Positions 43,111-46,059 of a DNA stretch of 64,000 nt are shown in pieces. A program made the position numbers and the translations under genes. This DNA is from Bathymodiolus japonicus methanotrophic gill symbiont (lineage in GTDB: Bacteria > Pseudomonadota > Gammaproteobacteria > Methylococcales > Methylomonadaceae), in the NCBI RefSeq assembly GCF_019721995.1, contig NZ_BLYC01000003.1, positions 62,001 through 126,000 of the forward strand. Direction: 5' to 3'. The notes beneath the pieces are model-generated. The model was not told where the DNA came from, did not search any database, and saw only the letters and a list, made by a program, of their open reading frames with translations. Within the stretch, counting starts at the first letter, position 1. Each line of letters opens with the position of its first letter.

Positions 43111-43189
43111 GCAAAAATTTCACCAGCCAACATTATATGTCACCACGGTGATCTTATTTGCGCCATGATTGCATTTTTTGTACTTTTGA

Positions 43190-45653
43190 CATCAGTGTTC
43201 CCATTGAAAGAAGAAGTACCTAAACAAAGCAGCCTATAACCTACCTGAAGGTAGCACCACTCGAATATTTCCATCTTTTTGATTTTAATCACTTATAACA
43301 GCAAAAGACACTCTGTAGGCACCGTAAAACACAAATATTTCAATAAAGCTTGCAATTGCCGAAAAAATTCTGCTAAAATTTCCGTTTTAATCAGCTCATA
43401 ACGGATATCACCATGCTTAAAGAACCTACCACTCCTGAACTATTCACCAACACTGGGCACTAAAAGGTATGGAACGTGCCCTGGTTACTCGTGTTCAAGT
43501 TTTTCCGTCCCCATTTGCCATCAAACTCTTACCTTCACCCAGAACAATACGTTAATGATGCTGTTGGAGCCTAAGCGCCCTAACATTCTGCCAGTCATAT
43601 TCTTTCCTGATGATCAGTTGAAACCACACGTCCTTTATTAATTCACCTAACTCTTTTTCGCTTATCACCAGGATTCTGGAAACTCCTAGCAATGACGTGG
43701 ATGAACCTCAAAGCAGTAATCATTTGAGACTTGCGCTGTAAAGCTTCCTACACGGATACTCAGGTAGTTTGCTTTCAATGCGGGCTATTTTGGGGCCCAT
43801 CGGGTGAAGGAGAAGGCAATGATCAAACAAAGACTCAGAACCCAGGCCACGGCTTTGATCCCTCTCATCTAATTGTTTTGGCCTCAACGCCGCCCATCCT
43901 TCATAAAGCTTCCAGTCCTCAAAGAAAACCTCAATCAAGGCCATCTCAACGTATAGGCTTGCATCATTATCTTGTGTGCGCCAAGTCAGGTCCTGTCCCC
44001 ACTAAATCGCGTAGTCGTTTTCACGTCATACATTTTAAGGCAATGACAAAGGCGTTTTTTACTGTGATAACTCCCTTCAATCGTCACTGCTGACAGTCAC
44101 TTTAGTCTCTTTGCCGCCACGGTCCACGTCATTATCTGATGCAATGCCTTTTGTTAATCGCATTAATGTAAGCTCTCGACTGACCTTCATTTCTACCTCT
44201 ATATTCAATATTTGGTTTTTACGTAATTGCTAATACACCTGCGAGCTCCAATTCTTTAGGCGGCTCGTCCATAAAGGATTTTTCACCATAAGCGCATCAC
44301 CAGTACGCCTTTAATTTAATCAGGCTATGCGCAACTTTTAAACTCTTTTAATAAGCCTAATCAATCTCTGTTTTGGTCGGTAGGCACTGTCACGTCAGGC
44401 TTACTATCCGACTTTTTTTGCTATACCGCTATTTCAACCGTTATCTTCTTTATCCCCTGCTTAAGGCTGGACTCCGCATATAACGAAAAACCGACAGGCC
44501 ACTGTAATGGATGAGGTACTAGCAGTAATAATACGATCGTTGTACATTAACATACCCCCGGAGCCTTTTGTGTTATCTGCTTGTAAACCTTATACATACG
44601 TTTGTCACTTAGGATCGTGCCTCGGTCTGATTCATCAAAGCCACACACACCATTCAGTAATGCCATACGTTTTAAAAATTAAGACCACACTCCCCGTAGC
44701 AACCAGTCACAGGTTATACTTTTGCTTTACGAGAACCCCCAGGATACTGCGGCTATTTGCAATCTCCAAGGCTTGCTCGCTCAAACTTAGCCCAGCAACA
44801 GAGTTCATTAGCAGTATGCCCGTTAAACAAGTGCCCAACCAAGCGGCTTTTAAATCCGTGTCAAAGCGGCTCCGGGTTTTAGCTGATTGAGCGCTCATTT
44901 AAATCGTCAATATAGCTTTGGGATAAAGGTGGCTGTGGCATTCATTAACACATGGGCTTAACCCACCGATAAAAATTACAACAACCTCAGAATGACCTTG
45001 ATTGTTACCTTCTCATATCAAAAACTTGACATCGAGTAAAGAAAATTCATTGCGCTCTGTTGAGTCCTATCCCTTTTGACTCCCCAGCAGAATCAATACA
45101 GGAGTTGAATCATACAGTGTGTACGAAACAGGGCATCAAATTTAACGTGGTGGGTTACCGGTGTCAAAACCAGGAAAACTGCACGGTTTGTGACCACCTT
45201 GCCATGACTATTAGCCCTGGAACCCATTGCCATGGCTGTCTTTCCAGCGATGGACGATTGAAAAGACTTCAATAACATAAAAGTAATTTCAAGGAAACTA
45301 AATGCTTGGTCTTCCGATACCGCCTCACTTGAAAATCAATGCGCCTGACTGCAATGAGCTATAATTTAATGGCGCGTGTTTTGAAATAGATTTCAAAAAA
45401 CACAACAGCCAGAATTGATTCTCCATCGGATAAAAATATATAGCGAGGCTCTGGAGATAGGCAGCAACAGGTCTCAAAAACGAGATCGTTTTGTGAACCC
45501 ATTATTTTTCCAGGCAAGAATATCTCGTATCAGCTCGTATACCATTCGGGCAGTTCAAAACGCAATAATAACAGGAATGTCTTTACAGTGCTTTATGAGC
45601 TCTCTTGTGGCGAGGTTAGTTTCACGGCCTCAATTGATAGGGGAACACTGATG
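43190..45653 (+). mobile_element. IS-A copy 5, with IS-B inside, heavily corrupted
   Basis: Outer ends are clean and flanked by ACTTTTGA (8 bp). Between about 43310 and 45480 the sequence follows IS-A, then IS-B (minus strand), then IS-A, but with a scattered indel or substitution every 10-20 bases. The pattern ignores codons and genes and looks like uncorrected long-read sequence. No usable reading frame. See findings. Confidence 0.85.
43487..45038 (-). mobile_element. IS-B copy inside IS-A copy 5 (corrupted)
   Basis: From CTCGTGTTCAAGTTTTTCC to AAAACTTGACATCGAG; both end repeats have lost a base each compared with clean copies. Transposase text recognisable in fragments only (for example LIEVFFEDWKLYEGW near 43930). 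Confidence 0.8.
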
Positions 45654-45975
45654 ACTTTTGAACTGTTTTTTAAACAGGACTAACAAGCGGTTCTGGTTTT
45701 CTTTACTTATTAATTGTACAAGCAGCCCGAGAAATAATAGGAAAATAAGCTCTTGATAGCCTATGACACTGGTATTGCCATTACTGCCTAGGTAGTCCTG
45801 AAAGAATTTAATGTGTAAGCCGTCACCTGACGCTAAAAGATAAAGCGTTCCGGCGATACTATACAGTGCATACATTAAATTCCAGTGCATGGATATTGCG
45901 ACGATACAGATTGCCAGGTATTGGTTGGCTACAGCCGATGAGAAAATGACTAATACAATGGTATATAAATATAAA

Positions 45976-46059
45976 CTGAAGCTTCCCAATTATTGAGTAG
46001 CTGAAATACACAATGCTGGTGTATCGAGGTTTATTTTAGGTGGTTTTGCCATGTTTATA
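45976..46059. mobile_element. M1 remnant
   Basis: CTGAAGCTTCCCAATTATTG to CCATGTTTATA, cut by IS-B at exactly the M1 position seen at 23480/23481. The two junctions are copies of the same IS-B-in-M1 insertion. Confidence 0.88.

Follow-up and report, generated by a model that had tools for sequence, protein, structure and literature searches.

Raw long sequencing reads have an error rate of about 13%, with insertions and deletions frequent among the errors (PMC7671305). According to the same paper, near-balanced insertions and deletions have been reported for Nanopore, and A<->C or G<->T substitutions have been tied to PacBio. When gaps are filled by PBJelly with uncorrected reads of low coverage, a low-quality consensus is expected in the former gaps, as stated in a published comparison (PMC5518131). 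No gap-filling step was found in the passages searched of a paper on a related symbiont (PMC10652631), which is not known to deal with this genome. The locus described here is a stretch of dense errors at 43306–45473 that lies inside two nested insertion sequences. It is almost certainly an artefact of the assembly rather than biology, probably raw or low-depth long-read sequence that was left unpolished.

The window, the whole stretch of 64,000 bases that was analysed, corresponds to bases 62001–126000 of contig C3 in the draft genome of a deep-sea methanotroph, of 4.97 Mb and 109 contigs. Its relatives are Methyloprofundus-like methanotrophs, Bathymodiolus gill symbionts among them, and the UDP-galactopyranose mutase gene (glf) near the patch has a best match of 87%. 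Throughout positions 1–64000, IS copies and small repeats are very abundant, often nested and mutually interrupting.

Results

Two IS families, IS-A and IS-B, prevail in the region of the patch. IS-A is about 1.53 kb long and its transposase is of the DDE_Tnp_1 type. The IS-B consensus measures 1533 bp end to end and its transposase matches DDE_5 and DDE_Tnp_1, the family being read from another copy in the window. Positions 43190–45654 are an IS-A copy on the plus strand with an IS-B nested inside. The 8 bp target duplication of IS-A, ACTTTTGA, stands on the plus strand at 43182–43189 on the left and 45655–45662 on the right, and is perfect, as the original prediction had it. The left end of IS-A (43190–43305) opens with the terminal repeat CATCAGTGTTCCC... 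and is clean. It is followed by the error-dense left arm (43306–43486), which reaches consensus position ~321. The nested IS-B occupies 43487–45037 on the minus strand and is error-dense as well. Damage inside both of its end repeats had been predicted and is present in the mosaic alignment described below. The right arm of IS-A, again error-dense, resumes at consensus ~931 and covers 45038–45473, and the right end (45474–45654) is clean except for a single T-to-C substitution at 45498. Consensus positions ~321 to ~931, about 0.6 kb, are absent from this copy. Being nested and having lost 0.6 kb of IS-A, it is therefore a dead element.

The error pattern was measured against the genome's own copies. 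For each family a majority consensus was built from alignments with an identity of 95% or more (54 for IS-A, 68 for IS-B), and the region was aligned to the mosaic of the two. Alignments below 95% were excluded, and damaged copies were thereby removed. The other IS-A and IS-B alignments mostly show 95–100% identity with few gaps. In 43306–45473 there are 204 events over 2168 bases (0.094 per base). Events begin at 43306, and no indel lies beyond the one at 45472; the bounds first proposed, 43310–45480, lie within 10 bases of the measured ones. The dense errors likewise agree with the expectation of one every 10–20 bases, the actual spacing being slightly tighter (mean 10.7, median 9). With the substitution at 45498 included, the events are 79 deletions, 76 insertions and 50 substitutions. 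The stretch is thus rich in indels (155 against 50 substitutions), and 139 of the 155 are of 1 bp (75 of the deletions and 64 of the insertions), as in an uncorrected long-read patch. A different aligner shifts these numbers: over the same stretch, BLAST best hits give 90 substitutions and 125 indels. Among the 50 substitutions, 27 are A<->C or G<->T and 16 are transitions. As to the sequencing platform, the spectrum is contradictory: the balanced insertions and deletions are Nanopore-like, but the A<->C and G<->T substitutions are PacBio-like.

Event density is 0.112 per base in the left arm of IS-A (43306–43483), 0.095, 0.100 and 0.078 in successive thirds of IS-B, and 0.099 in the right arm (45039–45473). 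The damage is therefore about equal in the host element and in its insert. At the edges it stops sharply, with clean sequence on both sides. There are no events in 43190–43305 (116 bp) and one substitution in 45474–45648 (175 bp), in line with the clean flanks first noticed. Under the patch's own rate, such clean ends have probabilities of 1.8e-5 on the left and 7e-7 on the right. The base at 45498 is present in 1 of 134 sites sharing the same anchor, so it could be either the last of the errors or a private variant.

These results bear on whether an old nested IS pair, no longer active, has simply decayed by natural mutation. The copy is indeed nested and lacks 0.6 kb of IS-A, as a dead element would. 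However, decay would have to end within a few bases at both sides, inside the same element, and would have to damage the host element and the insert about alike. Moreover, indels outnumber substitutions about threefold in the consensus alignment. Repeats that really have decayed in this genome behave otherwise, as the following scan indicated.

The scan covered 2.33 Mb in 11 contigs, 47% of the genome, in tiles of 200 bp, each compared with its best other copy, and it reveals patches inside repeats only. In the sequence used, C8:37501–42500 and C9:145001–147500 read as runs of N (5000 and 2500 bases). A near-full-length match was present for 7679 tiles, and 6708 of these showed no gap opening against the best copy. 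Gap openings per mismatch were tabulated for tiles of at least 80% identity, with 89 of the 7679 left out as falling under 80%. Outside the indel-dense blocks described below, the ratio was 0.16 at 85–90% identity (138 tiles) and 0.12 at 90–95% (300 tiles). Inside the blocks it was 0.86 (30 tiles) and 1.56 (26 tiles), respectively. Since 0.12–0.16 gap openings per mismatch stand against 0.86–1.56, decay in this genome is dominated by substitutions and the blocks are unlike it. The original prediction that decay would favour substitutions is thus borne out at 85–95% identity. No substitution-dominated divergence like that of the other repeats was found in the four blocks, taken together, when they were compared with the 438 outside tiles. 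Natural decay as the cause was rejected on the measured decay of this genome's other repeats, and we consider it scarcely credible.

A tile was taken to bear the indel-dense signature if it had 5 or more gap openings, no fewer than one gap opening for every two mismatches, and an identity of at least 84%. The signature was found in 66 of 7679 tiles, 58 of which fall within four blocks. The first is the window patch (21 tiles), with the BLAST tally given above. The second lies at C3:261400–264230 (19 tiles; 133 substitutions and 115 indels), the third at C6:74950–76440 (13 tiles; 81 and 79) and the fourth at C6:165060–165820 (5 tiles; 50 and 25). By BLAST best hits, substitutions are commoner relative to indels in the three other blocks than in the window patch. 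With 50 substitutions against 25 indels, the fourth block (C6:165.0–165.8 kb) is the weakest and least convincing case. In a 40 bp profile, the blocks show several events per 40 bp, dropping to 0–1 across most of the flanking repeat sequence. The patch lies wholly within IS-A and IS-B, and 2.33 Mb holds three more blocks like it, one of them weak. The tile scan also flagged C3:179901, C6:141501 and C7:130301. Three further places, C34:25.6 kb, C6:0.9–1.2 kb and C6:6.8–7.0 kb, were dismissed as patches, the finer profile showing one or a few disturbed spots in each. The ratio of 0.86–1.56 and the further blocks support the original reading of an uncorrected long-read patch.

Two readings would take the sequence itself as correct. 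In one, the stretch is a correct copy of the diverged IS elements of another strain. The draft may come from a mixed symbiont population, and at the right edge of the stretch there is a segment of 331 bp that is present twice at 99% identity. Against this, other repeats here diverge mainly by substitution, and clean IS-A ends flank the stretch on both sides, so that we hold such an origin to be very improbable. In the other, very low-fidelity copying in the living cell would write dense one-base indels into single nested IS copies, which we regard as extremely unlikely.

The join itself looks right, as far as it could be tested, and the reported structure is probably real: an IS-A at this place, an IS-B nested in it, and 0.6 kb of IS-A gone between two IS-B target sites. 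In a genome of the same genus (G009), the right flank of the patch is matched at 76% identity. Directly before that match, the sequence matches the left flank in the window with a local score of 21, which none of 2000 shuffles equalled. Neither IS-A nor IS-B was found between or around the flanks in the 18 kb of G009 examined. The left flank of a related site on contig C2 scored 7 against the same G009 sequence, and 1839 of 2000 shuffles were as good. A misjoin is therefore unsupported, as the target duplication is intact and both flanks adjoin in G009.

The junctions of IS-B in IS-A lie at consensus ~318–321 on the left and 930–933 on the right. Judged from exact 14-mers beside IS-B ends, IS-B has also targeted both positions at other places in the genome. 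Two IS-B insertions in one IS-A with subsequent recombination between them would yield this structure. The left junction was seen only at this locus in 2.33 Mb and the right one is an IS-B hot spot at several loci, so nothing indicates that the fill borrowed its structure from another locus, and that explanation was set aside.

Two side observations concern the same elements. IS-B reinserts at a few IS-A sites, consensus ~318–321, 591–594, 930–933, 1111–1114 and 1180–1183, and positions 1180/1183 alone hold 30 of the exact IS-B ends, of which the scan recorded 268. To the right of the patch, 45655–45977 recurs at C2:28808–29130 with 99% identity, IS-A adjoining both. On C2 this segment belongs to an ORF of 394 aa and makes up its 3' part. 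The IS-A at the C2 site is without a matching duplication on its other side; therefore IS-A copies probably recombined there.

Discussion

The error pattern, its sharp limits, the further blocks and the contrast with natural decay were all observed directly. Long reads as the source, and gap filling as the step, are what we infer from them. The accurate sequence stops about 116 bp (left) and 156–181 bp (right) inside the IS-A copy. Short accurate reads cannot resolve this copy, because the genome contains numerous nearly identical copies of IS-A and IS-B. On the simplest account, one or very few raw long reads then probably bridged the gap that separated two accurate contigs, and the fill was left unpolished. 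The patch's indels, and the majority of its substitutions, are then sequencing errors. Gap filling seems the likeliest step. Among the contig ends examined, 13 of 17 are in repeats, and contig C9 ends, and contig C10 begins, on a whole IS-A. Therefore, IS copies limited the assembly.

The same errors could come from an assembly made from long reads, or a hybrid one, if a single long read supported the stretch and polishing with short reads extended no further than roughly one read length in from each unique flank. The clean margins of 116 and 156–181 bp inside the repeat are indeed about one short read, and contigs can end on whole IS copies. However, other repeat copies are no easier for short reads to map and are nearly all clean; outside the blocks, 6558 of 7526 tiles of at least 80% identity match another copy at 98% or better. 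This route is therefore rather unlikely.

Taken as unpolished long-read sequence, the patch is no biological feature and nothing new, and several patches of this kind are present in the assembly. What cannot be trusted is only its sequence at the level of single bases. Frameshifts and stops in such patches should therefore not be mistaken for pseudogenes or for erosion of the genome in this methanotroph with its many IS elements, nor should patch copies be used to type IS families. Furthermore, the ratio of gap openings to mismatches against sister copies is a simple detector of such patches from the assembly alone.

Compared with raw long-read error as described in PMC7671305, the patch is similar in that indels and substitutions are fairly evenly spread. 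It differs in its rate, 9.4% against about 13%, and its mix of error types suits neither platform cleanly. As the rate is below that of raw reads, a consensus of few reads is possible. The patch also resembles the product of PBJelly when gaps are filled with uncorrected reads and without polishing, since there too, according to PMC5518131, error-rich former gaps lie between accurate contigs.
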